DNA of 39,840 bases from Ectocarpus siliculosus (lineage: Eukaryota; Sar; Phaeophyceae; Ectocarpales; Ectocarpaceae): NCBI GenBank assembly GCA_000310025.1, contig FN648381.1:250280-290119 (forward strand). The letters are read 5' to 3'. Numbering within the stretch: position 1 is the first letter of the stretch; each line of letters opens with the position of its first letter. A program made the position numbers and the translations under genes. Below the pieces are notes generated by a model, which saw only the letters and a list, made by a program, of their open reading frames with translations, did no database searches and was not told the origin of the DNA. This document shows positions 1 to 18,800 of this stretch, in pieces.

Positions 1-2995
1 ACGCCCATAGGAAACAGGGGGAAGCGTACAACCGCTAACAAGACCCCGGCGTCGTCGAATACCCGCAAGACAAGGCTAGCGAAGGAGGCAGAGGAGCAGG
101 AGAAGTTGAAGACGTCCGTCATGCAGTTCAAGGCGGTGAAGCAGGGAATTTCGGACTGCTTCACTGCCCCGGAGTTCCTGCAAAGCTTGGTAGATGCGCT
201 CACTCCGCATGCGACGGACGGGGCGGCGAAGAGGGCGATCGCGAGCGCCCTCGCGAAGGAGTCGACCGCTTGGACGGATAGCGCCAAGACTAAGGGTGCC
301 GCTGCTGAGCAAGCTATTATCACCAACCTCCTTACTCCGAAGGTCACGGCAGCATGCAAGGTGATGACTAAGAATGACCATGCGTTGGGACTTGAATTTT
401 TGGGTTGTCCCTAACTCTACGGCGATAAACTTGTTGGTCGCGTAGGTACGTCCTAGACGTCGACATCAGGACGACAAAAAATGTGGTGGTGGGTTTTCTA
501 CTGCAACCTGGAAGTGGATGATATTTTGACGAAGTAGGTTGTACCGGGCTACGTCAATAACGAACGCTAATCTCTCACTCACGACACCTGTGCGTCGTCA
601 TATCTTTCGTTTTTTACCGGATGTGCAGTCGTTAGATACCTCTGTGGAAGCCGCTACCAAGGTACTCCAGGAGAAGCCCGACGTTGCCCCTGCGCGAGGC
701 TCTAGAGGGGTGAGGGAAGAAGAAGTCCCTGGAGTCGTATGCGATTTTGTGAAGCTGTGTGTAGACTGCAAGGCGGTTAAGGAGGAGCAACTGCCAGCCT
801 CATGCTGACGCTGGCAAAGAATACCGTATTTCATCTAATGTACGAAAAAAACACAAGACTTCCTGATGCGCTAAATAGTCGACATTGCTCACGGTGTCAC
901 TGCCTGTAGGACACCATACGGAGGCGTCGTGTGTGCTGGCACGTTCGGGTTGTTGTGAGGGCAGAATAACCGAAGGCCAATGCAGTCTCTCGAAAAAATC
1001 CAACCCGTAGTCTAAGCCGGAACCAACATTTTGAGCGGCCTCTTGTACTGCCGCCCCGTGCGCGCGAGAATCAACGGGTTCCGTTTTCCCGGTGCCCTCC
1101 GTGTGGCTACTGTGTCTCTGGTGCATTTATGTTGTTCTCTTGCGTATTTTTCGAACATCAATCTACACCAAAATGGGTTGGCACGTGCTCACCAAAAATT
1201 AACGGCCTTTGGGCCCCTTTAACGGCCTTTGGGGTGATAGGTCGGGTGAAATGTGCTCGCCGGTGTTGAGGTCGTTATTGGGTGGGAGGTAGATACTTGG
1301 ACCTTTCTTGCCACGCAAGCTTTGCTGACGTGACTCCACGACCGTTCGTCGAATCGCACCTCGCAGCCTTGGGTATCCGAATTGAAGGCAGCTGCCAAGT
1401 CAGGTGCGAAGGACGGAGCCAAGGACGGTTCAATATCCGCGAAGGAGGACATAGCCAAGGTGCAGACTGACGTCTCCAAGGTTCACTCGGACGTGAAAAA
1501 AATGGGTCAGGTGGTTGTGGCGGGCATGGGTGAAGTGTTGAAAGCTTCGCTCGATGAGTTTGCGAAGGCCCAGGAAGACATGTTGAAGAAGCACGCCGAG
1601 GCCCAGGATGCAAAACTCCGGGACTTGACGACGCACGTGACGGAGGGTTTCAGAACAGCGTGTGACTTCATCGTCCAACAGGTCATCGCCCAGGTACAGA
1701 GGTGAGTGTTGACGTCCTGGGGGTCAATTGTTAAAGTTTTAGTCTCCAATTCTACACTGTCGAGCGGAGAGCTGAGAGGAGAGCACACCTTCTGACGTAC
1801 ATGCGTGAGTGGGCGTGGGTGTGTAGGTGAAGAGATGGATATTGAAGTGACGCGACGTGGTTGTGTTGCTGGACGGTACATTTCGATAAGACGAGGCAAT
1901 TACTGTAGATGAAATTTGGCAAGCAACTGGAGGACAGCGTTGGAGATTAGCTCAGGAAACAGAGTTCGATCTGTCTTCCTTTTTTTTTCTTCATGTCTCG
2001 ATCTTGATTAGTCCGCAACGTTCGGAAAAAAAACAGATCCGATCCGGATCTGTTCGCATCTCAGTATTTTCCTAGACTTGCAATGTCGCCGGATTCGTCA
2101 AGGAAAGGGGGTTCAGCTGATAGTTTTAGGGTTGGAGTCAAGCTCGAAAATACCAGAGAAAAAAAAACGTGACGATTGTGTCGACAAACCATTTTTAGTC
2201 TCCAACCCCGCCCAGAGAGTGCATGCAGATGGATGGCAAGCAACTGAGGCTGCAACCTTGTAGATCTTAGTCCATCTGTACCCCCCTCCGGTATCCCCCG
2301 CAACGTGCTCAGCGGCATCAGGTCTGCCTTGGACGAAGACAGAGCGGGGGAGACCCGGAAGCGAGGCCCGCAGAGGAGCCATAAGATGGGAGAGACGCCG
2401 CCTTCCGCCAGCAGGACTCCATCCAGGCGCAGTCCGCGGAACCACGAAAGCTCTCACCGAATGTGCGTAATCTCCTGACAGCAGTTAGTTGACTTTCGCC
2501 AACTCTGGATCCGTTCACCGAAAGCTAACGTTTGTGTCGCCTCAGGTTGTGTTTCCCCATGTTCTCACGGAAGCACGTTCCTTCTATGTTTTGCGTTCCG
2601 ATTTGTTCGTCTTACTCCGCAGTTGCAGCGACAACCAAGAAACATCGGGGTCGCGGGCAGGATTGACATCCCGCAAAATGATATCATGCAGGTTGCGGTG
2701 GCTGCAGCCGTCGCCCAATCCCGCATGTCGCAGGGCCAGGCTCCCGGTGCTCAACAGACCCCGAACAGCAACCCCTTTGCCAATGGCAACCCCTTTGCCA
2801 ATGGCTTTGCTGGGAGCTGCCGGGTTCATGCCCGCTAACGGCATGAACCCGAGCGGGGTTGGCGGCGGCGCGAACTACGTGGCTTCCCAGGGCATGGGTG
2901 GATCCGTCGGAGTCTTTCCGCAGGGCTTCGCGGGGCATAGCAGCAACAACCCGTTCAATGGTAACGTGTTCGGTAGAGGTCCCTATGGTAATTGA
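1..2995 (+). CDS. Split gene, 3' part: coiled-coil, Asn/Gly-rich protein of unknown function (frameshifted near its end)
   Basis: I do not recognise the family. The frame is open from base 1, so the start lies outside the window. Four exons fit with phase 0 at every junction: 1-360 (donor GTGATG), 629-709 (after GTGCAG, donor GTGAGG), 1367-1693 (after CTCGCAG, donor GTACAG) and 2623 onward (after CCGCAG). The first exon is basic and Ala-rich (AKEAEEQEKLK). The third is a charged amphipathic helix region (KVQTDVSKVHSDVKKMG, EFAKAQEDMLKKHAEAQ) and is probably a coiled coil. The last exon is Gln/Asn/Gly/Pro-rich with repeated NPFANG. Its frame stops at 2838, but the neighbouring frame continues the same composition (NNPFNGN, GRGPYGN) to a stop at 2995, so a one-base indel is likely near 2788-2820. 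The alternative donor AG|GTGAGT at 1701 reaches the 2995 frame directly but reads through an unnatural stretch. It could be a host or a transposon-derived gene. Confidence 0.5.
2770..2805 (+). repeat. Two tandem copies of an 18-base unit encoding NPFANG
   Basis: The unit AACCCCTTTGCCAATGGC occurs twice in tandem inside the last exon of the first gene. The reading frame breaks just after it, which fits slippage or a sequencing error in the repeat. Confidence 0.7.
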
Positions 2996-3315
2996 CCTTG
3001 GAGTGGTGCTGACAATCTGCCGCGAAGAACTTCGTCTTTGCGGGTCATAGGTCAGAAGCGTGGCGGGACCCCTTGTGGTGTTCGGTAACAACGCGTGGAC
3101 AGAAAAAGTAGCAAGTAGGGTCGCTCTGGTGGCGGTGTTGGTCGTTGGCGGTTTGAAGGATTACGTTAATGGCGACCACCGGTATAGCACGGCCGTCGAG
3201 GAAGCTGGTTACGCGGGAACGGGAAATCTGTGTTCGTGCAGTATTGATGGAATCTCGTGGTTGACTCGTAGCAATCTTTCCGTGGAGTCGAGACATCCTA
3301 TGAAGTACAGCAGCG
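2996..3315. other. Stretch without a recognisable gene
   Basis: Short open frames exist, but none has a splice context or motif I can support. This is probably the 3' flank of the first gene. Confidence 0.4.
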
Positions 3316-4038
3316 ACAATCTGAATTTTACACACTACTACGTTGCCACAGGTTCCTGTTCGTTCTGAGGAAACCTACAGAGCAGTAGCCGTGCTTTTAT
3401 CGCAAGCACTAAATGAAGTCATACCTCGGTGAGTGACATGCCAGAAATACAGAGCAAAACACCGGCCACATGCGACGGCGGTGATCTCTGCGCATCTTCA
3501 TGCGCTCCACTTTTATCGCAAGCACTAAATGAAGTCACACCTCGGTGAGTGACATGCCAGAAATACAGAGCAAAACACCGGCCACATGCGACGACGGTGA
3601 TCTCTGCGCATCTTCATGCGCTCCATGAAAGTTGAAGGGTGCCAAACCAAAATACAAAAATACTGCCGTTGCAGACATTGCGTAAGACAGCAGTTGTCTA
3701 CAACAGCTGAAGCAGCAGCCACAATCTGGATTTTACACACTGCTACCTTGCCACAGGTTCTTGTTCGTTCTGAGGAAAGCTACACAGCAGTAAGTAGCCG
3801 TGCTTTTATCGCAAGCACTAAATGAAGTCACACCTCGGTGAGTGACATGCCAGAAATACAGAGCAAAACACCGGCCACATGCGACGGTGATCTCTGCGCA
3901 TCTTCATGCCCTCCATGAAAGTTGAAGGGTGGAGGACGATTCAGGGTGGAGGACGATTCCCTCTTATCACACCAAACCGAAATACAAAAATACTGCCGTT
4001 GCAGACATTGCCTAAAACAGCAGTTGTCTACAACAGCA
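3316..4038. repeat. Nested direct repeats
   Basis: A unit of about 116 bases beginning CTTTTATCGCAAGCACTAAA starts at 3394, 3510 and 3803. The first two copies are in tandem. A second unit containing TTTTACACACT and CCACAGGTTC occurs at about 3316-3393 and 3721-3802. A third unit containing ACTGCCGTTGCAGACATTGC occurs at about 3640-3705 and 3972-4038, ending in CAGCAGTTGTCTACAAC. The order of the blocks indicates one duplication of about 405 bases on top of an older 116-base tandem duplication. No coding role is seen. Confidence 0.8.
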
Positions 4039-4358
4039 GCATCTTCGAGGAGGACGGGGCGAAACACGTGTCAACACAGAGGTGGTTGCGCCGGAGTCGT
4101 ATCAGCAGAGGCTGTATGTGGACCGGTTATACAAAACAGCGGCAAGACCCACCTGCACACCTGCACCTGGAGAGAAACCGGGAGAGCGACGAGCGGAACG
4201 CAGGGTCGAGTGGCCCGATGGTCCATTCGTCCATTTCTCGGCCTGTTCGTTCGCACTACGGTCTGTTCAAAATCCAAAATTCAAAACAAGCGACCTCAAA
4301 ACCTCAAAACAAGTGACCTCACCTTCTCTGGGAGGACACGCGGGCACTCTGCTCTGCG

Positions 4359-7300
4359 ATGGGCATCTTGTCGCTGTCAAAATATGCGAAGAGTGTGGGG
4401 TCGCTGAGCGTAAACCTGCAGCACGCGGAACACGATGACCGCATCGTAGTGGACGGCGGCTTTCTCCTTCACCGCTGCTGTACAAGGAGGACAGCGGCAC
4501 GCGATTTTTTGCTGCACGACGACGTCGCCCCGCTTGTCAAAGAGTGTGCTGCTGAGGTCTCGCGGTTCGAGTCGCGTGGTTTCAAGGTCACCGTAGTCCT
4601 CGATGGAAGCACTCCGCCGGCGAAGAAGAGCACTTCCGAAGCTCGCAGAACCAAGCGGGAGGCTGCAGCCAGTGAGGCCCGCGAGCTCCAAAGAACTGGG
4701 GGCCGACTTACGGAGATCAACAAGAAGGCCAGCAGTGCGTGCGTGTTCGACGCCCGCGTTGTTGCAAGGGTTGCAACGCTCTTGCGACCCCAGATAGCAG
4801 GAGAGGTTTACATCGCTTCAAGGGAGGCCGACCCACAGATAGTGATTTTCCAGGACATCTACCTAGAGACGGGGTGTCCTGTGTATGTTTTCGCGAACGA
4901 TTCGGACTTGATCGTCCTCGGTGTTCGATCGTTGCTGTGGGACGTCAGAGGGACTGATGTGGGAAATCTCACGGGGGTGTGCATCAGGTCGAGGTTGATA
5001 TTCCAACCTCCGGAGTGGGCTTTCGCGATGGACGCCGAAGGCTACGATTTTCTCCGGCAACTGCACGGGCTTCCCCGCAGGCACACGCCTAACTTACGCG
5101 CTTCTCCTCTTACCGAAGCCGCCGCCCGCCGTAGGCTGAGTTTGTTCGCCACTCTCGCCGGAAACGACTTCGCCGATTTTAAGAACATCGGCCCTGTCAG
5201 GGCGGCCAAAGTAGCCTTCGAATTGATCGAACCAGATCCTCGGGGAACAGCCGCCGTTGTGCCTTTTGAGGCGCTTGTGGGCAACTTGGCAAGGATCGTC
5301 GTGCAGGACTCCAAGGAGGAGGAAACACCAGCGGCCCTGGAGGAGGCGGAGGAAAAGCTCAGGAGGTCTCAAAACATGTTCCACAATGCGGTAGTGTGGG
5401 ACCCGTTGAAGAACACCCTCCGACATTTCTCCTGTGCTGCGTCTTCGCTGGCCATCACCAAAGACACAGGTCAGAGTCGTGGGGATCGTGTACGTGTCAC
5501 CTGCTCCTCTAACTCCAAATATCCCCCACCTACGTGTAGTATCTCGGGGGTAGCATGTTGTTCGGTGTCTGTACCTTCTCGTTCCGCATTAATGGCTAAA
5601 CGTATCGTCGACGTCGTGTCTATGTGCGTGCATGTGTAGTCTCCAGACAGAGTATTTAGGTCTTTGGTGCACATGCGGTGCAGCCTCTATTGTTCGAATC
5701 TGGACTTTGCCCATGTCGTGGCACCGGAACGAACGCAACATTTTTGTCCGACTCTCAAGCGCGCCCGGAATTGCCGTGGGGCACTCTGCGCAATAACAAC
5801 ATACATCCATAGTATTGTAGACGAGCTAGCTTCCGGTGTCTGTGTGTGGAACATGAAACAATACTGCTGTACCACGGTTGCTCCTGCTGTATTACCACAG
5901 GTACCCTGGAGTTTTCCTCTGTCGCCTCTGGCATAGCATCGGGGGAAGTTTCTCCTACCACGGGCCAGGTGTGGGCCCCGCCATTACTGGAGACCCGGAT
6001 AGCACAAGAGTTTCGCCGTGCTACACGACGGGCGGGGAGCCAGATGCCGCCGCCGCCGCCGCCGGGACCGACGCCGACCCCGGACCAGAGTACGGGCCGG
6101 AACAAGCGCTCTCGCAAGGCGGTGACTCACGACACCAACAACTACCGTAAGCACGGGTTTAGTCGTCTCCCCGGTGCCGAAGAAGACTTCAACAAGTGGA
6201 CAGTCGCACAGCTACGCGAATTCCTCAGCGTGAGTCCAGCAGTTGCTTTCATGGTTACGTTTGGTATGCACACGGGATATTTATTTCAAGGGTTGAACAA
6301 TGGCGTCGCAAACTGCCGCGCGGGAATTTTAAAGTAGTTTATCGCTTGGATTATGCTTAAATATGTTGAGCTTTCGAAGGACACGCATTGATCACAGGAA
6401 CGAGTGTACGACGTCCCGTTGGTGTCGCGGCACCCCCACTGTTAACCGTTTGTCATGCGTACACGCACAGCGTGTTGCGAAGAAAAAATCCCCTCACGTG
6501 GTCCCTGTCCTATACTCGTGGCAGGTTTTTAGGTGCCTCGACCACGCCGGCCACAGCGCGTACCTCAAGGGCCCCCTCGCCGAGCTGGCGGGGCAGGTAG
6601 TGGCGATGATCAAGAAGTGCGGGTTGCTCAACAGCAACCAAGCGTTCCGCCATCCTGTCCCGGATCTCAGCTCTTTCCAAGACAAGGAGCGCATGGCCAT
6701 GCCCGGACTACCCGGCCCCCGTTCGCGGATCAGCGGCTTTGAACATCTACAGCAGCACCTCCCCGAAATGTCCAAGTCGGTGATTCTGCAGTTCCTCCGA
6801 CAAGTCAACCCCATCTCTGGCGAGGGTTCGCGGGTTGGGATGCAGAAGGTTATGGATATGGGGAACCTGAACAGGTTGTGGGGCGTCCCGGCCAAGAACG
6901 GGTTGATGTATCTGGGAATGAGGTGAGTAGCCACTGGATGGTGCGACCGGAACCACGCGAGAGGAACTTACTATTGTTGTTGCTGTCACGTGCTGGTGGC
7001 GTCGTATCCTTTCGGCAGGCCTGTAAGCGCTTCTCCCACACCGAACGCAGTCTTACCGCTACCAACTACATTCGACACGCATTTCGCGCCATAGTCTTCA
7101 AGATCACACCACAACCGCCCCCACCCCCACCCCCTCCTGCATCCCTCATGCTCTGGTAGCTTCGTTGGTGCTCTTTTGGCACAACCCACTAGTTCACTTC
7201 TACGGTAAGACGCCCACATTGTTATGCCATGCTCCTGACAAATGTATACCCACCAGTCCTCTTTAACGGTAAGAAACCCGCTTATTTTTTTTTTCATGCT

Positions 7301-8044
7301 TGTGACGCAAATACGACCTTGCCTCGACGATTGTACCTCACGCCATCTTCCTTACGTCCACGCTCGCTTCTGGTCAGCGCCGGTGCCTCCTTCTCGGATA
7401 CGAAAACGTACGAGGTCCGCATACAACTGCGGGTGGAGGCGTTGGACGAGAGCGCTCATCCCTCAGCAGCGGAGGAGGAGGGGCACGGGGTAGAATCTGG
7501 GCAATGGCCGAGACAGCCCCTCGTCGCCCTTGGTGTGGTCGCCGCTCTGTGCGAGTGTCCTGCCGGCATAAGCGGGGGATGCTCCCACACTGCAATGGTC
7601 CTCTTCTTGACTCGTCTGCTGCAGATGACCGAGGACGAACTAGCTACGTTCAACCCATCTACATGTACCGGTCGAGCTTGCAGTTGGATCATGCAGAACT
7701 GTAAGGGGGGCAGGTTGGGAGAGCAGTGTTCGTTGTATGGAGAACCTCTATCGCACGGCACGAATGTGGTCAGGAAAATGCGGGATCCTCGGCGAGGCTT
7801 TGACGACGACGTTACGGCGAAAGTACAGGGAGTAACCGCGATCGATCGAATGCAAGACTTCAACCCGCACCCCTCTGGAGGAAAGTGGGATGAACTGAAG
7901 CTCCACTTCGATGCTGGCAAGGATTTCAGTAGGTTCAAAATGGACAAGCTGCTGGCGTTCGTGGATTGTGCCAGGGGCCCGGATAACAGAGCAGTCGCCA
8001 TGAATTACCTTCCGCCGCTCGTGCGTGAAGATTGCGACCTGTAG
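4359..8044 (+). CDS. FEN1/XPG-family nuclease with SAP-like and SWIM zinc-finger domains (transposon accessory protein)
   Basis: Exons 4359-5469, 5901-6229, 6525-6922 and 7378-8044 join in matching phase (1, 0, 2) and total 2505 bases, giving 834 residues plus stop with no break. The start MGI matches the MGI start of FEN1 proteins. All seven metal-binding acidic positions of the family can be placed: D32 (VVDGG), D82 (VLDG), E156 and D158 (SREADPQ), D181 and D183 (NDSDLIVLG) and D270 (LAGNDF). D270 is followed by a helix-two-turn-helix-like segment (NIGPVRAAKVA). A proline linker (about 419-431) and a basic cluster (437-443) lead to a SAP-like segment (about 467-510, WTVAQLREFLS then KGPLAELAGQV) that spans an intron. 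A SWIM finger follows: C671, C673, C681, H683. Predicted role: structure-specific cutting of branched DNA during transposition, in the nucleus. The domains are visible; the role is inference. Cellular FEN1 has neither SAP nor SWIM. Confidence 0.8.
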
Positions 8045-9146
8045 CTTTGTGGTTCCTTTTCCCTTCAGAGTGTTTTCCGTGCAGAGTGTTTTGTGAGCGG
8101 CACTCCAATGTGGCCTCTCTTTGGTGACTTCTACGTAAACGTCTCTACAGGCTCGACCCTCAGAGGTTAGTGCAACATTATTTTGTGGTAGGTTCGTTTT
8201 ATTGGGTGTCATGGGGGGGGGTCTACGCACGGGTGCCACGTGGGACGTCTACGCACGGTAGGGTTGAAAGTACCTTTTCGCTTTGGGCGCGGCGTCATCC
8301 GTCCGTCGCGACCATACACCCCATTAATTTGTTGCAAGATGAAGCGGGGGACAAAGAGCTACCAGCTCTCGCAAAATACATGGGTTTTCTTTGGCGAGTG
8401 CATGCTTTGCCTGCCGCCTTCGCTACAATAGACTCTTTTTATAGCTCGCTGCACGAGCTGCGTGTATTCGCCCCTGAACACGGCCCTCGTGCCCATTTTA
8501 CCGTTCATCATGTGTCGGCAGAAGATTCGTGCGATATGATGGAGGGTTAATAGTGATATTTTCCTGTTTTTCCCTGACACACTTGCCTTCCGTCTACGGA
8601 ATCCCAACTAAAAACAGAGAATTAGAAACAGCTAAAGTAGGTATCATGCCAAACCCGAAGCAGTCACTGCTGCCGACCTGCGCTGAACTCAAATCTGGTA
8701 GGATGGGATTTAAGGCCATTGTTTCAGAACGTGATTACACAGCGAGGTTGTTGCAATGGTTCCATTAGCTCGGATGCTCTCTTGCAAAATATACACCGTT
8801 TAGGAGGTGCTCCCCGCAAGCGAACACTGACAATCCCGCACTAAGCCTGAGGTACCCCTATATCTAGCAAGTACATCACCGTGTATGCTCACTCGCCCAG
8901 CACATCCACCCGCCGAATATCTCCGTCTACTCTTGGATGTACTTCTACTACATGTACTACATAGAATTTTCCTCAAACCGCAAATGGCACAACACCAACA
9001 GAACACCACACAACATGCGCTTCAACAGGAACTCTAGCATAACACCACACAACACGCGCAACAAGGATGGGAGAGCCAACGCGACGGGGCAGCACATCCG
9101 CGCGCATACAGCGACACACGCACACACACCGTACACCCCGGTATCC
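8045..9146. other. Spacer between two convergent genes
   Basis: This holds the presumed 3' untranslated ends of both genes. A 40-base periodic pair (AACACCACACAACATGCGC near 9001 and its near copy near 9041) and a CA-rich run (9110-9130) precede the transposase stop. No gene is supported. Confidence 0.5.
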
Positions 9147-11533
9147 CTAGCTCCGAAACGGCTGTTGCATCAAGTTTACCAAAGCAGCCACTACATGAAA
9201 GCACATCTCCAGGTGATCGAGTTGCTTGTGATGGGACTTCGAGTCAACGATACTCCACTTCTTCACTGCTCCAATTGCTCGTTCTACGTGAATGCGCAAG
9301 TTGGCTACCTCCCAATTTTGCTGCATGTCGGCTTTGGTGAACTGAGTCTCGCCGCTAACCTTGAAGGGTGGCGCGCAATAGTGAATACCTTCCCTTATCA
9401 GCAAAGGCGAGATGGAGTTGAAACCCTTGTCGGCCATCACTTTGAAACCCATGTTAGCTAGACCGTTTTCCCTCATAGCGTCGACGAGACCAGACTTGCG
9501 GACAACCTCAACGTCACTCATCCACCCGGGGTACGCGGGTCCGATGTAGCAAATGGCACCCCCGGGGGTTATCGCTACAAAAATTTTAGCCGTGTGCCTG
9601 CCCTTGTACGTGGAAAAAGACACAAAATTCATGTTTGTTTGCCACGACTTGGGAATCTCTATCTCCGTGGCATCCAACACCAACGCGCAATTCTCGTAAC
9701 CTAAGTCGTCGAAGTTCTTGGGGAGAAGGTCGACGACCTCTTTTGCCGAAGGGAACCGTATGACAGGACGGAGGCTGCGATAGAGGAAATTCAGCCACGT
9801 CGTGAAAGCCCCCCCCCCGGTACTCTCGTGCACACCGAATAGAGTCCACGCCACAACCAGCGGCATCGCCGTGCGCAACACCATCAACGTAAAAAATAGT
9901 CCGTTGACACCACGAAAAGTCTTGACTCGCTGGCTGTTTCCACCCGCTGAAACGCCTGCCCGTTCTCGCTGATCGAAAAACACCATGTTCTCCGCAGCGC
10001 CGTCGGCGTTCGCGAACTCGTACAGCTTCTGCAGGGTAGGTGCGGGGAGATGGGAGAAAGGGAGAAAATAGCCACGGGTTATGCCGGTGAAGATTTTGTG
10101 GGCGGCTACGCGGTCACAGCGGCGGAGCAATGCCGCTATTCGGCCGAAAGCGAAATGTTTGAGCAGAGGCGTCCACGGCTTGAGCGGAGGCGATAAAACT
10201 AAAAGCAATGGCCGGCGGGAATGCAATCATACGTTGGTAATAATTTAGCGGTAGCCGGTCCTATTTTTCTTTAAGCGCTAACACGACTTTTCGCGGCAAA
10301 AACAGTAACGGCGGTACACCCGGTGAACGCCGGTGTTTGTGTAGGAAAATTGGCGCCAGGTTACTTACCGACACCACTTGAAAAACTGAACAAAACAATG
10401 CTTCGATTCGATCTGATAATCACCACTTGCCCTAGCCAGAAAACACACGAGGTTAACCGAAAATGCATGCCATTCTCGTTGGCGACAACCATCAACTTGG
10501 ACTCGTGTTGCATTTCTTAGTACTGCTGTCGTAGCCGATAGACGGGATGATGACAAACACCTACCAGCCTATTGCTGTAGACCTGGACAGCAGCAAAACC
10601 AGGACAGCACTCCTCTTGTCTCGGGCAAAGCATTACACAAACACGGGCGCCCACCACTACCGTATCTTCAGCACTGCTGTAAGACGCGCAGCAAATAATC
10701 CTGGTAGCCTAGTGGGGTTGTCTGCTGTAGTTTCGAGCGACATATCTTGAACGCACGAGCTCAGCTGCCACAACAGCAGTTAGTTGTAGACAACGTACGA
10801 ACTAAATACCAGTTTTTAGACTATGCAATGACGTGAAAAATGGGGCATGCGTTGTATCGGGGCTGCAGGCGAGGCGGGGGTGTCAATAAGAAACCCCACA
10901 GACATTTTCCCGCAAACTGTAAAAAACTAGCGTACAGCAGTCCTTACTTACCAGGAGAGCCTCGTGGGTGGGCACCCCCGCCAGGCAACGAACTTCTGTT
11001 GCCGTCTTTCCACGGAGGATGTTGTGGTCGACCCCAACGTCCGCCGGCTGTGATGACCTGCCGTGTGCTTCATGTTTATCCACCGCCTCCTTTAGCTCCG
11101 ACTCTAGCAGGGAGATCCTTAGCCCCAAATCTCTACTTTTCTCCTTGAGTCGTGCTTCCTTCTGAGCCCCAGCTAGCAGCGCTCTCCGATGTCGGTCGTT
11201 CAAAGCTTCGAGCTTGAGACTCCTTGCCAGGGCACCACGAGAAGCTTTGAGCATCTCCTCGCTCGTTTGGCTTGGCAGTGCTCCCTCCTTCACGCTAACC
11301 CCTACCGCTTCGCCGGTTAGGGATTTGCTCTTCACATCGGCTGCTAGGCTACCAGGAGGGAAGCGAGCGGCCGAAATCCTAGGGTCGCTCTTGGGGACTG
11401 GAAGGTCGTCTCGACCAAAAAGCGCGTTGCACCAGCTCTTGAACTTGCCCGCGTCTTTGGGCATCCGTATCGTCGCGTCTCCACCATCCTCCTCACAAAA
11501 TTTTGTTTGGCAGATGCATCTGTGTTTCCCCAT
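9147..11533 (-). CDS. THAP-like/DDE_Tnp_4 transposase (ISL2EU or Harbinger-related)
   Basis: The catalytic exon (10178-9147) has the DDE_Tnp_4 layout: ALVLDATEIEI, then VMADKGF, then RIHVERAIG, with spacing D-x80-D-x48-E (D363, D444, E493 in the joined model). Ahead of it is the helical segment FFTLMVLRTAMPLVVAWTLFGVH typical of this family. No ATG opens this exon. A strong donor (GTAAGTAAGG at 10951) ends an upstream exon 11533-10952 in phase 0, and acceptor CTCAAG before 10178 restores phase 0, giving about 537 residues. The upstream exon starts MGKHRCIC and resembles a THAP zinc finger: C8-x4-C13, MPKD, W34, RF-PP. The second zinc pair is missing (S54 and R57 where C and H are expected). 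A coiled coil follows. The acceptor is weak, so the junction is tentative; the core identity is firm. Confidence 0.75.
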
Positions 11534-12536
11534 TGTAAGCGCTGAGGATCCCTACGGCTGCTGGGCGGAGTGTGTGTTGTGTGCTCACGTGTCACCAGGC
11601 GACAACCGACAAGAGAGAGCGGGCCTGCAGGTTGCTGGTACACCGCTTGTATCTGTCTGAAATTCTGCGCGGAGTCCCCAAATCTCGCCGCAAAAGGAGC
11701 TGCCTAAAACGAAGCAGACGCCGAGCTGTTCTTCGTGATGGGAATGTCTAGAGCATGCCAAGGGGCGTAGGAGTGTTCTGCTGTCCTATCCTGGCGTTAT
11801 CGTTGCTCTGTAAGTGGTGTCACGGCCTCCGCAGCTGCCAAGCCAGCGGCTTCAAGTTTTGAAAAGCCCTCCCCAATTCGTCTTGGTTTTAGAGTGCCCA
11901 AAAAAGCGCATGCCCCCCCCCCCCCACAGGCGATTTGTAAAAAATGCGGGGCTATTGCAAGAAGCCTATGGCGAAACAGACAAGGTACAGTGAAGGTCGA
12001 CTCTTGCCGGCCACAGGAGGCGGAAGCTGCTCACGCTCGGGGACGGATCATGATTTTTTGCGGTTCTCCACCGAACGGATATCGAACGATGAGACTTCAG
12101 AAAAGCTTCAGAATTGCGAAACGTGCGCCCAGTTGTTGTATAGACATGGCAAGTTAAACACCAAAAATTAGAACTGAAATGATGGGTGGTGGGTGGGTGA
12201 CCGGCGGACCCCAGAAAGCAAAGCATGAAAAACGCGAACCACATTGAAAATACGTTTGAAAACTGAGGGAGATTGCATGCCCTACGACTAAAAGGGTGCC
12301 ACACACAAAACGCCCGACCAGTACCTAACACATTTCGTCTGCACCTTCCCAACATAACATATATGAGACACACAAGACAGCTACCAAACTGTCTTGTTGA
12401 GCCTGTTACCCGCAGGGGAGATGTCCCTATATGCTGTCTGGGAAACCGTAGACACAGGTACTTTCTGACGCTATGAATTCATTGCTAATCTGTCCCAGAC
12501 TCTTTTCTATGATAGAGATGGATTCGTTGTGTCATA
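11534..12536. other. Region between two transposons
   Basis: This is upstream of the THAP/DDE transposase gene and left of the PiggyBac element. It contains a run of C (about 11916-11929) and a dispersed repeat (see 11966-12085). The right end of the ISL2EU-like element should lie here, but I could not place it. Confidence 0.4.
11966..12085 (+). repeat. Dispersed repeat, copy 1 (second copy inverted at 23420-23535)
   Basis: About 115 bases containing GGCGAAACAGACAAGG and CGGCCACAGGAGGCGGAAGC match the reverse strand of 23420-23535 with many substitutions but almost no gaps. Translated, both copies read RNRQGT...SCRPQE.EAA. The conserved frame hints at a former coding segment of an unidentified mobile element. 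Confidence 0.65.
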
Positions 12537-12553: not shown

Positions 12554-12872
12554 ACACCCCCGAATCGGGCATGTTAGCAGGCACGATAACTCTTATATGC
12601 GACAACTTTCGAACCGAATTGAGCTGTGGATACCTGCGTCGACGACGGCTCGACGGTACGACTAGACCGCTCGAAAAGAAACAAAGTAACGACCGGGGAC
12701 AGAAACAGCACGTCCCCTATACAGAAAATTGAAAGCCTGGGAGTTGCAATGCTCCGCAGCACCCTGCATCCCGCGCTGCTGCTGTGCTGCTGTGGACCTC
12801 AGTCCAGCACGCAGAAACGCGATAATGATGCTGTTTTTCCTCCTGCTTGTTGCGATTTTTCGCACGAGCGCT

Positions 12873-15800
12873 ATGGACGGGGTTCCTGTGTATCACGTTC
12901 GCAAGGAACAGGAGCTAGCTCCCCAGCCGGCTGCGTTGGGCCAACGGGTACAGCAGCACATCGATGGATCTGCGTCGCGCATCATTTGCAGCACAGAATT
13001 GACAAGAGGTGGGAGGGTTATGGTCTTGCCCGACCGCGCTGGTGTGTATACCGTAAAGCCGGATGGCCACTGCGGGTTTAGTGCGATGTCCGCGGGTCTG
13101 CAGGTTTGCCTCGGTAGAACAAGGGCCGCCCCCACCCCAGAGAACATGAGGAGCGTGGTCGCCCGTCGAGCCACGGAACATGTTCTTGGCGCATCCGGTG
13201 TTGAGGACTTGACAGCTGTACTCTCACCAGACCAGCTTGGGCGGGCCCGGAGTGTGCGTATACCGGATGTTTTAGGAGCTGCCGTGGAAGAAATGACGGC
13301 GCCGGAGGATAAGACGGTCGGTTGGTTTCGCGAGAAAGCCCAGCTAAGTGCAACAACAAAATGGATTGACGTGACCTGGTTCTCTTTTCTGGCGTCGGAG
13401 TACGGGGTGAACATCATGTTGTGGGAGCCAAGCCCCACGTACGGCACAGTTCAGCCGTACTCAGCAGCCCTCACGGCAGGCATGTTCTTGTTCGAGAAAA
13501 AAGACAAAATGGACGAGGAGGGGGATCGCTGGGTGCATCTGCTCTATCGGAAACACGACGATCCGTGGGCAGCGCGCGAGGGTGTAGGTGAGGCAGGCCA
13601 TAAACAGCACAACCACTTCGACCGTCTGCAGCTTGGACTCAACGTACATACTTCCTTCATCGATGTCGTCAGAGTTGCAAAGGAGAAAGCGCTAGGAATG
13701 GCGGCGCCGGTGCCGTCGGCGAGCGCCACGGCCGGGAAGAAAGCGCCAGGGTCCGCAAAGGTGGACGGAGAAGAGGTGGACGATCCCGAGTTCAGCATGA
13801 GACCAAGCGGCAGCAACAGCAACAACAGCAGCAGCAGCAGCCGGCAAGCGGAGGGAAAGGCTGCAGCGGGAAAGAAAAGCAAGGCGAAGATCGGGAGTAA
13901 GGTCGGGGTGAAGCGACCAACCGAGAGGCAGCCAGGGGACAGCAAGAGGCACAAGGCGGGGGGTGCACCGGGGAAGCAGCGCAAGGCGGTTGGTGTGCCG
14001 GGGAAGCGCAAGGCGGGGGGTGCACCAGGGGAGGGGAGGGGTGCCGCAAAGAAATGCAAGAGTACGCCGACGGGTAGGAGGAAATCGGTGAAGAGCAACG
14101 GCCAAGTAGACGAAGCCAACTATGATTCCGACGGCAGCATCGGGGGGGGGGACCACGAGCGAACCCAGGGCTCCTTCGCTAGCATGTCGCAGAACGAGAA
14201 GAAGGTGGTGGCCGCCATGAAGAAGATCCAGGAGCTCAAGTACAGGCGGGCGTACTTGCTGAGCAACAAGAGGAGGGCGCGGGGTCTAAAGGTGGGTTTG
14301 TGTTCGTGTAGACTTTTCTCTTGGCATTTTCCAGGCGAATAGGCGGACCTAAGAGAAGACGACGATTTATGGTGGTGCAAAAGTTGAGTCCGATAAATAG
14401 TGCGAATCAATACTGCTGTAGCAGTTTCTTGCGTTTTTTTTTTCGCTTGGAATACCGAGTAGAGAGTGCCCTATCAACGCTGAACAAACGCGTGTCTAGG
14501 TAGGCACTTTGTTTCGCCTCGTGTGGTCGCTAGTCTCTACCAAAAATAATCTTAGAAGTGTTGGTAAAAAGCACCTGGTTGCTTGCATGATCATGTTGAC
14601 GCCTCCGTGCCTGGCTCCTGTTGCTCAACACGGGTGTGGTTTCCAATGTTGGCAGGGGGGCAACGAATGTCGAGTTCACGATTCGGAGTATGTAAATGCA
14701 TGTGCGTGACCTGAACACCCTACTGGCCCTGTATGGTGTTACTTTTGATCGCCGTGTCAGTTTCATGTGAATCTCTCGCTCGCTCGATTCGTAGGTGTTA
14801 GTGACACCGTCGCCTCGTACGACTTTATTTTTTTTCGGATGATTGAACACAACACGGCAGGGTATGAATTGACACACCTGCCGCTCTGTTTCCGCTGTTT
14901 GCCGACGACGTGCTCAACCCAGCTCAAGGCCATACGCGACAGGGAGAAGGAGAGGCTCAAGAAAGCGGCAGAAAAGGAAAAAGAAAACCAGCTTCGGCCG
15001 CGGCAGGAGGTGGAGGAGGAGGAGCGACAAGAGAGAGAGGAGCTAGAGAAGCAGCAGCAGCAGGAGCAGGAGGAGTTGAAAGCTGAGGCGGAGGAGTACC
15101 CGGAGGTGGCGTGGACTGACCGCGGCATTCCTGACTTTGCGGGAACGACGGACCACAAGAAGAGAACCCGGCGGCAAGCGGTCAGCGCTGCTTCGCTGTC
15201 GGCGTCCGCGCGATCGAAGTTGCCCTCTCTCGATACCTTCATGGGCGGCCGCGACGAGAACGGAGAGTTCCCGCTGAGTGGTTTGATGAAGACGTGCTTC
15301 AACATGATGTTCCCCGACAAGGCAGTAGATCTTTTCGTGCAAAAGGTGAGCATTGGTGTTTTCGTGTGGTCGCATTCCTTATTAAGTTGCACTCGAACAA
15401 CTCAGTAGGGGGGTTGCACGCAAGTAAGAGACCGAGCCGTTATGCGTCGGACTTGAAAGTAGTTCCGCGGGAAGGGGGGGAGGGGGGGGGGCGGGATGAA
15501 TTGTATGCCCTTTGTTGGTGTTTACACTGCATGATGTCGTCTGCATGCCTTGGTCGCCTAATCATACTGGCCGAATGTAGATCACAGCTCATCAAGATTG
15601 TCAAACACACGGGGGTTTATGCGGTGTTCATGCATACTTCCCTCCTGACGTGCTACGTACCAGCGTATCGTGCATGGGGTGGTTTGCAAGGGCGGATGCA
15701 ATACCGCGGAATGTACTCCCTGTAGAGAAGCACCCTCCCCCCCCCCTATCCAGCGCGCGGGATCCCTGTTATGTATGTTGTAATTTGATTACCGATATCC

Positions 15801-18800
15801 ACCCGACCAACCCAACAATTGAAAGCGGGTACTAGGTAGATGCCTGAGAACACAGTCTGTTGTGGCCCCTTGCGGTATTGCTTACGTTCCAAGACACCCG
15901 CGGAAGGCATATGCGGATTAATTTAATCAAACATGTCTGTGCTGCCACGGCTTGCATCAACAATCATTGTGTATATATACGACACCTCGGCGCGACCTCT
16001 GGGGCGAATATGCTAATCTTCGCTCCGTCTTGTTGTCCCTGACCTCTTCCGCGCGAAACGTGATACTTTTCCAGACCAACAAGTACGTGAACCTTTGCAC
16101 CACACCACCACCCCCCGGAGCTACGGAGAAGCGCAAGGAGCATCAGATGAAGAAGACGAGAACTCTAGGCAGGGTCACCCTGCCGGAACCCGCATTCGAG
16201 CGCAAGCACATCTACGGCATGCTGGGCATCACGATCACGATGGGGCTCACCAAGAAAACGCGCATGAGGAAGCACTGGAGTAGATCGTTGCACGACGACT
16301 ATCCTCTAGTGAGGGCGTGCATGCCGCGTGACTTGTTCGAGCTGTTGTACTGCCGTTTCATCCACTGCTCGGACGGCAACGCTCCTCCTCGATTGTTGGA
16401 CGAGGACAACACCCCTAACCCGGACTTCGATTCGAAGTGGCACATCAGGTGAGTTTTTACCCGTCGGAGACTTCGAGCGTTCTGACTGTTGGACCACGCT
16501 CCTCCATTTTTTCATGTGGTGAAATAAAACGGCCTCCAAGCCGGCGAGTACCCTAGAATCCAAATCCAAAGGGTTCATGTCGTTGTACCTGTCGTTGCCC
16601 TACACCACCCGCCCTCCCCGTGGAATACTACACGTGACCACTACAGTAGCGTACAGTTGTACACCACCCGCCCTCCCCGTGGAATACTACACGTGACCAC
16701 TACAGTAGCGTACGGTTGGGATGATCATAGCTACGGACTAGCGTGGTTGGTGTGTGTAATCAATAGGCGAGCATTCGTATGTCCGTTCGTGTCCCACGAA
16801 TGTTCTACAACAGATTAACCAACGCCACACCTCCGTGCTAATCTTGACGTCGCTTCACCGGCAGAGAGCTCGAAGACATCTTGAACACCGCGTGGACGGA
16901 AAACATGGACTTCAACCAGTGGGCTGTGCTACGACGAGCAGATGGTGAAGACTGTGTCGAGGTACGCGCACTTCCTCATGAGACACCAGCCCAAGAAGCC
17001 CATCACCCACGGTACGCGGTTTGTGTTTCGTGTTGTATGGACGATTCCTGCCGACTGTGTGTTTTCCTTGTGACGGCCTTGCGGTGTGAGGGCTCGGCGG
17101 CTGGGGACATGGGCGAAGACCTTGTATAGTATTCGGTTTTCAAGGGCCACCATGTGGTGGAGTTGTCATTTTTGCTTTGTGGAGTTGACCCCCCCCCCCT
17201 CTCCCTCTACTGGAAAAATAGGAGCAGGAACATTTTGGCGTTTAGGTCACATGAAGAAATCATGCCCGTGGGCATAATCCAAAGCTCGATTGCTACACAG
17301 AGCTCGGCGGTGCCGAAAATGGCGGAGCTGGAACCGTCAATGACTGTCCACGAGTTTCAAGCGGCAAACTCGAATAGAGTGCAAACGGGCACGATTGACT
17401 GCTGCGCCGCCTTGTTAATTCGCTCCACCATTTTTCCCTATTCACGTTGTTCCAATGCAGGCGTGAAGATGCTCGCGATCTGCGACGTCGCGGGGTACTG
17501 TTTCGTCAGCAGCGTCGAGGGTGGATTTTCGGGGGATCCCAAGCTGAGGAAGTGGTCTGACTGCCCTCTGGGACGGACCACTCGGCACGTTCTACATGTC
17601 CTGCTCGACGCCTGCAAGGAGTTCGGTGACAAAATCGACGGCTCTGGCGTGCACATCGCAATGGACAACTACTTCACAAGCCCGACACTGTTCGAGTGTC
17701 TTGCGGGCCACGACATCTTCGCGGTGGGTACGTGCCGGGTTAACCGAACCGCTGGCGCGATCCCTTTCTTGCAGAGCCTCGATCGCATCCCCGTCAAGCG
17801 GGGAGACATGAACTTTGCCCGCGCCGGCAATGTCGCATTCGTGCAGTGGCTCGACTCGAAGGATATCATCCTGTGCAGCACCATCCACCTCGCGCAACCC
17901 TCGCGCCGCCANNNNNNNNNNNNNNNNNNNNNNNNNNNNNNNNNNNNNNNNNNNNNNNNNNNNNNNNNNNNNNNNNNNNNNNNNNNNNNNNNNNNNNNNN
18001 NNNNNNNNNNNTCGCGCAACCTCGCGCCGCCATCGGCCAGCCCAAGAAGGAAGACGACGACGGCGGCGACGACCATTTCGCACCTCTACCTTACAGGTGA
18101 CCTTTTTTGTTGTTGTTGACCAGATTCATGTTTTTATTTCTGCGTCTTCATGTCGGATGCCTCGCTCGAGTAGCATGTCGGTCAAACTGGTTCGTGCAAA
18201 GGTTGATGGAGTTCAAAGTTTGGTGTTGCCAAAATGCAGCGGCTCGGGTTCATGCCTTTAGTATTCGGTTCGTCACACAGGCTGTTCTCACCGACCGGGA
18301 ACGTGCTTGGGGCTTGAGCATTGTAGTGTTGACAGGGGCTGATGCTACGCCGGGGTAAAAATAGGTTGCTACGTCCGACGACCTCCATCCAGTTCGTCGT
18401 CGCCGCAGCCGCAAGTGTGGTGCCTGACCCATGTGTTCCGCCTGCCCCCCCGCCTGCCTGCCCCTTTTCGTGCGTGTCCAGCCTGCGCAAAGCTGGGCAG
18501 AAGGGGAAACCCATGGAGCTACAGCAGCCGTGGATGCGTAAGGATTACGTGGCCAACATGGGGGGAGTAGATACGGCCGACCAACAGAATGGTTCCCACG
18601 CCCATGACCACAAGGCGTGCACGAACTACTGGCGGCGAGTGATGGAGGCCAAGATTGAGCAGACGTTCACCAACATTTTCGTGATGTTCAAGGCTTTGGT
18701 AGCCTTCTGGGACGGTGAAAGCGAAGGAGAGGCTCGAGAGAGGAGACCTAGACCTTGAGTCGTCGATGGAGTTGGAGGGAGTGGTGAAGGAGCTCCGCAG

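Follow-up and report, generated by a model that had tools for sequence, protein, structure and literature searches.

Why should a gene for a nuclease of the FEN1/XPG superfamily, continued by SAP-like and SWIM segments, lie beside a transposase gene in the genome of the brown alga Ectocarpus siliculosus, and are the two genes parts of one mobile element? The locus lies in a stretch of 39,840 nucleotides of contig FN648381.1 (positions 250,280 to 290,119 of the forward strand), which is called the window here and to which all positions without a contig name refer. In the available parts of one source (PMC4482050), the role of the additional open reading frames (ORFs) of PHIS transposons is stated to be unknown, and the ISL2EU elements are described as making an AT duplication in an A|AT|T context and as encoding a transposase with DDE, HTH and THAP parts, with a YqaJ nuclease as the second ORF in most of the autonomous candidates. 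The same parts give terminal inverted repeats of 6-259 bp, a length of ~4.8 kb, and 25 families in 14 species, all of them animals; the domain content is given likewise in the available part of another paper (PMC9179366).

A nuclease joined to a SWIM finger

The nuclease-SWIM gene has four predicted exons:

4359-5469, + strand: exon 1, EXO1/XPG-type nuclease with seven metal ligands and an H2TH-like segment
5901-6229, + strand: exon 2, linker with helix 1 of the SAP-like segment at its end
6525-6922, + strand: exon 3, remainder of the SAP-like segment together with a conserved region of no known fold
7378-8044, + strand: exon 4, SWIM finger, then CTGRACSW

Under the predicted splicing, the exons are joined via GT-AG introns into a frame of 834 amino acids with no internal stops. 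D32, D82, E156, D158, D181, D183 and D270 occupy what we take, from an alignment to EXO1, to be the seven metal positions of the FEN1/XPG family, and the intact gene with a full set of ligands that had been described at the outset is thus borne out. Because other copies show its exons in unchanged order, with 42-61% identity, the gene is more than a chance arrangement of open frames.

The best solved relative of the nuclease is EXO1, with E 2.4e-7 for the single protein as query; with a profile of 11 family sequences, human EXO1 is found at E 1.3e-13 and the best XPG/FEN1 entry at 1.2e-5. Pfam XPG_N gives 21.5 of the required 22 bits with the whole protein, slightly below the cut-off, and 23.5 bits, slightly above it, with exon 1 alone; among the 11 family members XPG_I is matched by nine, XPG_N by eight and XRN_N by six. 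Structure prediction for exon 1 gave a model of low confidence (mean pLDDT 54.9), for which EXO1 was again the best Foldseek match (E 4.8e-8, at a TM-score of only 0.36-0.40) and FEN1 the next. The superfamily of the originally predicted 5'-flap nuclease of FEN1/XPG type is therefore retained, but by profile comparison the enzyme is nearer EXO1 than FEN1. The protein resembles the EXO1/FEN1/XPG nucleases of hosts in its seven metal ligands, in the H2TH segment and in having human EXO1 as its best match, and it differs from them in being fused to SAP-like and SWIM segments and in occurring in many copies within transposons.

The SWIM pattern CxCx7CxH is formed by C671, C673, C681 and H683 (encoded at 7550-7588). 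The complete finger claimed for this protein stands, its ligands being invariant in all 12 aligned members, with a Pfam score below threshold (two of the 12 are matched, at best with E 0.018); searched against the whole genome the Pfam SWIM model gave no match, though the alignment shows the finger. The ACxW of the following CTGRACSW is kept in groups A-C of the copies described below and missing in the one fragment of group D. For the SAP-like segment, the match is weak (E 0.02-0.08) and covers the first 13-15 of the 37 model positions, which is the first helix only, but it falls at one common place in three groups. Pfam detected no YqaJ domain in the nuclease-SWIM protein or in the other family members. 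No significant match to the nuclease or the SWIM part was obtained in PHROGs, no relatives were found in IMG/VR with the nuclease and SWIM alignments as queries, and none in GTDB genomes with the SWIM alignment.

The transposase gene

The neighbouring gene is convergent with the nuclease-SWIM gene in the window and consists of two exons:

10952-11533, - strand: exon 1, THAP-like N-terminus and coiled coil
9147-10028, - strand: exon 2, HTH_Tnp_4-like segment and DDE_Tnp_4 catalytic domain

Joined as 11533-10952 and 10028-9147, they form an open frame of 487 amino acids, and the position of the intron is common to groups A (window copy), B and C. The identification of this gene as a transposase is confirmed by a DDE_Tnp_4 match with E 2.2e-30, accompanied by an HTH_Tnp_4 match with E 1e-5 (25.4 bits vs a cut-off of 27) and by matches to IS5 models that stay below threshold (best E 2.4e-7). 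A profile of the DDE exon retrieved only matches at E 0.0025 among solved structures, to a chain named carboxyl-terminal protease, and among plasmid records only bacterial transposases at ~24-26% identity were seen in the best 12 of 27 matches. The N-terminal exon is called THAP-like: the Pfam THAP model is matched below threshold in four of ten members (best E 0.0076, positions 1-85 of 87). Position 57 is Arg in the window copy and His in the other nine aligned members; judged by eye against the THAP motif, Ser appears to stand in place of the third cysteine. No THAP was found when a profile of this exon was compared with solved structures (best E 0.22, unrelated), and its predicted fold (pLDDT 60) retrieved no THAP structure (best Foldseek E 3.8).

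Ends of the element and a third gene

No terminal repeats are evident within the window alone, because the left end of the element lies outside it. The boundaries, which became apparent with the adjoining part of the contig (C53), leave these features in the window:

1-11967, no strand: part of the transposon inside the window, delimited by the inverted repeat pair and by breakpoints common to copies
11660-11967, + strand: right terminal inverted repeat, ~98% identical to the left one
11968-11969, no strand: AT adjoining the right end and taken for the right-hand copy of the target-site duplication

The remaining 3,232 bp are located at C53:247048-250279, including an assembly gap at 248400-250279, and the left inverted repeat starts at C53:247048 (C53:247046 with the AT). 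The complete transposon comprises 15,199 bp between the AT pairs, 1,880 of them N, and its inverted repeats are ~310 bp long (AT included). The flanks of the group A copies all end at window position 11969. Both ends are seen in six copies, each with both genes between them, and the length of the element ranges across copies from ~10.9 to ~15.2 kb. Copies of groups A and B have AGGCTTC as their terminal sequence, those of group C AGACCAC. With just 14 matches to its end sequence in the genome, including a weak one, this is a low-copy, large element.

The element had been predicted to contain two genes; this has to be revised, as a third, Cys-rich gene is also present in groups A and B. Its exon at C53:247574-247963, left of the window, matches the same place in C390, C13, C15 and C122, with 34-38% identity between A and B, and further matches were found in C124, C19 and at a second place of C15. 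In a BLASTP of two sequences without composition correction, the C13 and C15 exons match each other at E 3e-15. In group C the matches are weak (E 0.002 or worse), and none is a clear counterpart. Open frames at 1-412, 1334-1705 and ~2310-2995 of the window may be later exons of this gene. Upstream of the nuclease gene (3394-3918), a unit of 116 bp occurs three times, two of them in tandem, and is matched in other copies of the element.

Copies in the genome

The genome of the window itself, the only one searched, comprises 189 Mb in 492 contigs. It contains 66 light-harvesting matches and at least 150 matches to the EsV-1-7 motif, 150 of 880 candidates having been scored; proteins with this motif are reported to have multiplied in brown algae (PMC12477816), and we read these matches as those of a brown-algal genome. 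With the nuclease-SWIM protein as query, 67 exon matches were obtained, distributed over 20 contigs; the DDE exon as query had 34 matches, on 19 contigs, and both genes occur on 17 contigs (17/20 and 17/19, respectively). The pair is arranged tail to tail in 16 of these 17, the genes of C12 being on one strand, and is spaced as widely as ~12 kb in C239 and ~6 kb in C122. Among the contigs with one gene only, C376 and C454 end at contig ends and C372 runs into a gap. In C114 an unrelated reverse-transcriptase-like frame, followed by a gap, occupies the expected place of the nuclease gene, and C4 carries a fragment like group C with surroundings that were partly read. The linkage of the nuclease-SWIM gene to a DDE_Tnp_4 gene within common ends, foreseen in the original prediction, is thus seen for this one genome in the 17 contigs and the six full copies. 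From the window alone, a host repair gene lying next to a transposase gene by chance could not have been excluded; with both genes on 17 of 20 contigs of a 189-Mb genome, and with termini common to the copies, we give this explanation practically no weight.

The copies were sorted by identity into four groups, of which B, C and D are backed by DNA alignments for the copies compared. Group A, including the window copy, occupies 7 contigs, mostly with ~90-98% identity; identity is ~42-61% in B, ~30-42% in C and 31-32% (nuclease) in D. Some copies among the four groups keep open frames. Five other XPG_I loci are present in the genome (C2, C44, C14, C21 and C16), none of them on a contig with the element, and no DDE_Tnp_4 match was found on their contigs. 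A single YqaJ match exceeds the cut-off in the genome (C16:4387488-4387868, E 2.6e-8) and one, in C112, falls below it; none was found on the contigs of the element.

Two copies have particular surroundings. That in C407 has a separate Harbinger-like DDE gene (L018, C407:5082-5870) ~3.4 kb from its own DDE gene, and no right end was found for it. That in C15 (flanks L044 and L032) lies between exons which by eye look leucine-rich-repeat-like, in opposite orientations.

The target site

AT adjoins the element at all six left ends and at 11 of the 12 right ends read, the exception being C200; these counts come from only some of the 14 sites that match the end sequence, and group D was left out of them because its one right end was guessed from one copy. 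No left end was found for group D. The window copy is flanked by an AT pair. The copy in C94 also has AT on both sides and is inserted in a repeat, for which there are at least 40 empty copies among 885 candidates. Twelve of these 40 empty sites were fetched. At the point of insertion eleven of them read AT, in one case alongside a 2-base deletion, and the twelfth reads AA. The C94 site is as a duplication of AT, 2 bp long, would leave it; the same letters could also result if an element with TA at its end inserted bluntly. The empty copies listed include none for the four other joined sites, the C94 repeat filling the list. The A|AT|T context of ISL2EU, with both of its letters, was found in none of the five sites, and an ANT or TNA/TWA duplication, as in Pangu and PIF/Harbinger, was absent from the sites read.

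Two group C copies, in C94 (L045/L039) and C261 (L046/L036), occupy equivalent positions within the same repeat and have further flanking DNA in common, so they probably represent one insertion duplicated together with its surroundings.

Conservation between diverged copies

The protein alignments do not include copies with truncated ends, stops or broken frames (excluded from A1, L004-L007; from A2, L011, L030 and L006/L021; from A4, L014, L016, L022, L029 and L038). D158, D181, D183 and D270 are kept in 11 of 11 members and E156 in ten, L030 having Lys instead; for D32 and D82 only groups A and B are covered. When these two groups are compared, dN/dS is 0.10 in the DDE exon, 0.16-0.25 in nuclease exon 1 and 0.30-0.35 in the THAP-like exon, values that are rough because dS is at least 1.2 (1.2-2.5 where finite, and often infinite); in the SWIM exon dS is saturated and dN is 0.29-0.30. 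By these codon estimates, the groups differ by fewer protein-changing than silent changes.

What is observed, then, is that two linked genes lie between mobile ends and that both have conserved catalytic letters. The retention of the metal ligands across diverged groups suggests that the element needs the nuclease activity. A competing explanation would put the nuclease outside the chemistry of transposition, as a captured enzyme of host type that is kept for the repair of ends, for copying into homologous sites, or for action against silencing or competitors. It is compatible with the role of the PHIS second ORF being stated as unknown (available part of PMC4482050), and with the weak constraint among near-identical copies, where dN/dS is 0.37-1.27 with few changes. 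The conservation of D158, D181, D183, D270 and the SWIM ligands down to ~31-40% identity, beside a transposase, speaks against it, and we consider it unlikely.

Relationship to known transposons

The element is like ISL2EU, as described in the available literature, in its AT duplication, in a transposase with THAP-like, HTH-like and DDE_Tnp_4 parts, and in a second gene with a nuclease domain. It differs from ISL2EU in that the nuclease is of EXO1/XPG type and N-terminal, without YqaJ; in inverted repeats of ~310 bp starting with AGGCTTC, where those of ISL2EU are described as starting with GG; in its length of ~10.9-15.2 kb, its third gene in groups A and B and the lack of A|AT|T; and in its algal host, ISL2EU having been reported, in the parts of the literature available, only from animals. 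Because AT and the transposase fit ISL2EU but YqaJ was not found, we call the element an ISL2EU-like variant, not a member, with a predicted EXO1/XPG-type nuclease in the place of YqaJ.

Related DDE transposases are also encoded by the PIF/Harbinger and Pangu elements, which differ in their TNA or ANT duplications and in a second ORF that is Myb/SANT or unknown (available part of PMC4482050). Harbinger elements of Ectocarpus itself are described, in the available part of a paper on its transposable elements, as having two tail-to-tail genes (PMC12477816); the main text of that paper contains no occurrence of XPG, SWIM or ISL2EU.

Since an AcademX transposon likewise encodes a nuclease (available part of PMC10045372), the possession of such an enzyme by a transposon is not new in itself, and one may ask whether the algal element is of the AcademX type. 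Its 2-bp AT differs from the 3-4 bp duplications given for AcademX in the same part of that source. Moreover, the algal transposase belongs to DDE_Tnp_4, with sub-threshold IS5 matches, and an AcademX affiliation is highly improbable. The nuclease of AcademX is of the XPG type. Chance adjacency, a host gene and AcademX were all dropped as explanations.

Searches of the literature by title and abstract found nothing that combines SWIM, flap endonuclease, transposon and DDE; no element with XPG and an Academ transposase, or with XPG/PIN in a DNA transposon; and, for YqaJ with SWIM, only unrelated work.

A possible role for the nuclease

We consider it probable that the nuclease-SWIM gene encodes a helper of a large cut-and-paste transposon of the PHIS group, ISL2EU-like in its target site and transposase, and that the nuclease has a part in transposition. 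In the mechanism that we propose, the transposase would bind the inverted repeats, excise the element and, by cuts staggered by 2 bp, insert it at AT. Through its SAP-like and SWIM parts the helper would stay bound to the transposon DNA, where its nuclease would remove 5' flaps or resect 5' ends at the joints of excision and insertion.

The second protein of ISL2EU has a SAP-like start, a SWIM finger, a CTxxxCxW motif and YqaJ at the C-terminus. The proposal that one nuclease fold was swapped for another in an ISL2EU-like slot is partly supported, namely by the AT site, the transposase, the linkage of the two genes and the lack of YqaJ; as to a swap within a homologous protein, its basis is position and architecture, not an alignment to ISL2EU ORF2. 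YqaJ-type exonucleases (such as lambda exonuclease) and EXO1 both work from 5' ends, and such an exchange would thus be functionally conservative. It is tempting to go further and suppose that a 5'-end nuclease is obligatory in ISL2EU-like transposition, and that its fold was exchanged (YqaJ in animals, EXO1/XPG in brown algae) on related SAP-like/SWIM scaffolds, the algal elements forming a separate, three-gene lineage of PHIS; this extension is tentative, and we would put its chances at somewhat below even.

No replacement need have taken place if the helpers of PHIS elements recruited their nucleases independently, EXO1/XPG in algae and YqaJ in animals, which is otherwise compatible with the helper role proposed above. 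The N-terminal nuclease, as opposed to the C-terminal YqaJ of ISL2EU ORF2, would agree with this history, as would the lack of a YqaJ match on the contigs of the element in this genome. Nothing speaks directly against it, the polarity of the change not being readable from one genome; we regard it as somewhat unlikely.

If the helper reading is true, the ISL2EU-like design would extend from animals to brown algae, and the algal elements would offer a test of what the second ORF of PHIS transposons does. A ligand-keeping EXO1/XPG-type nuclease in the slot of that ORF suggests that nuclease activity, and not a particular protein, is needed, and hints at DNA cutting from the 5' end as part of the movement of such elements. 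With four groups in one genome, and open frames in some of their copies, the question of the second ORF becomes testable.

Two further open frames lie to the right of the element in the window. Directly beside it, a frame of 550 codons (12690-14342, + strand) looks OTU-protease-like by eye and has no Pfam match at E 0.01. Further on, an open frame at 17130-18119 (+ strand) matches DDE_Tnp_1_7 (Transposase IS4) at E 6.5e-12 and represents another transposase, of the piggyBac type.
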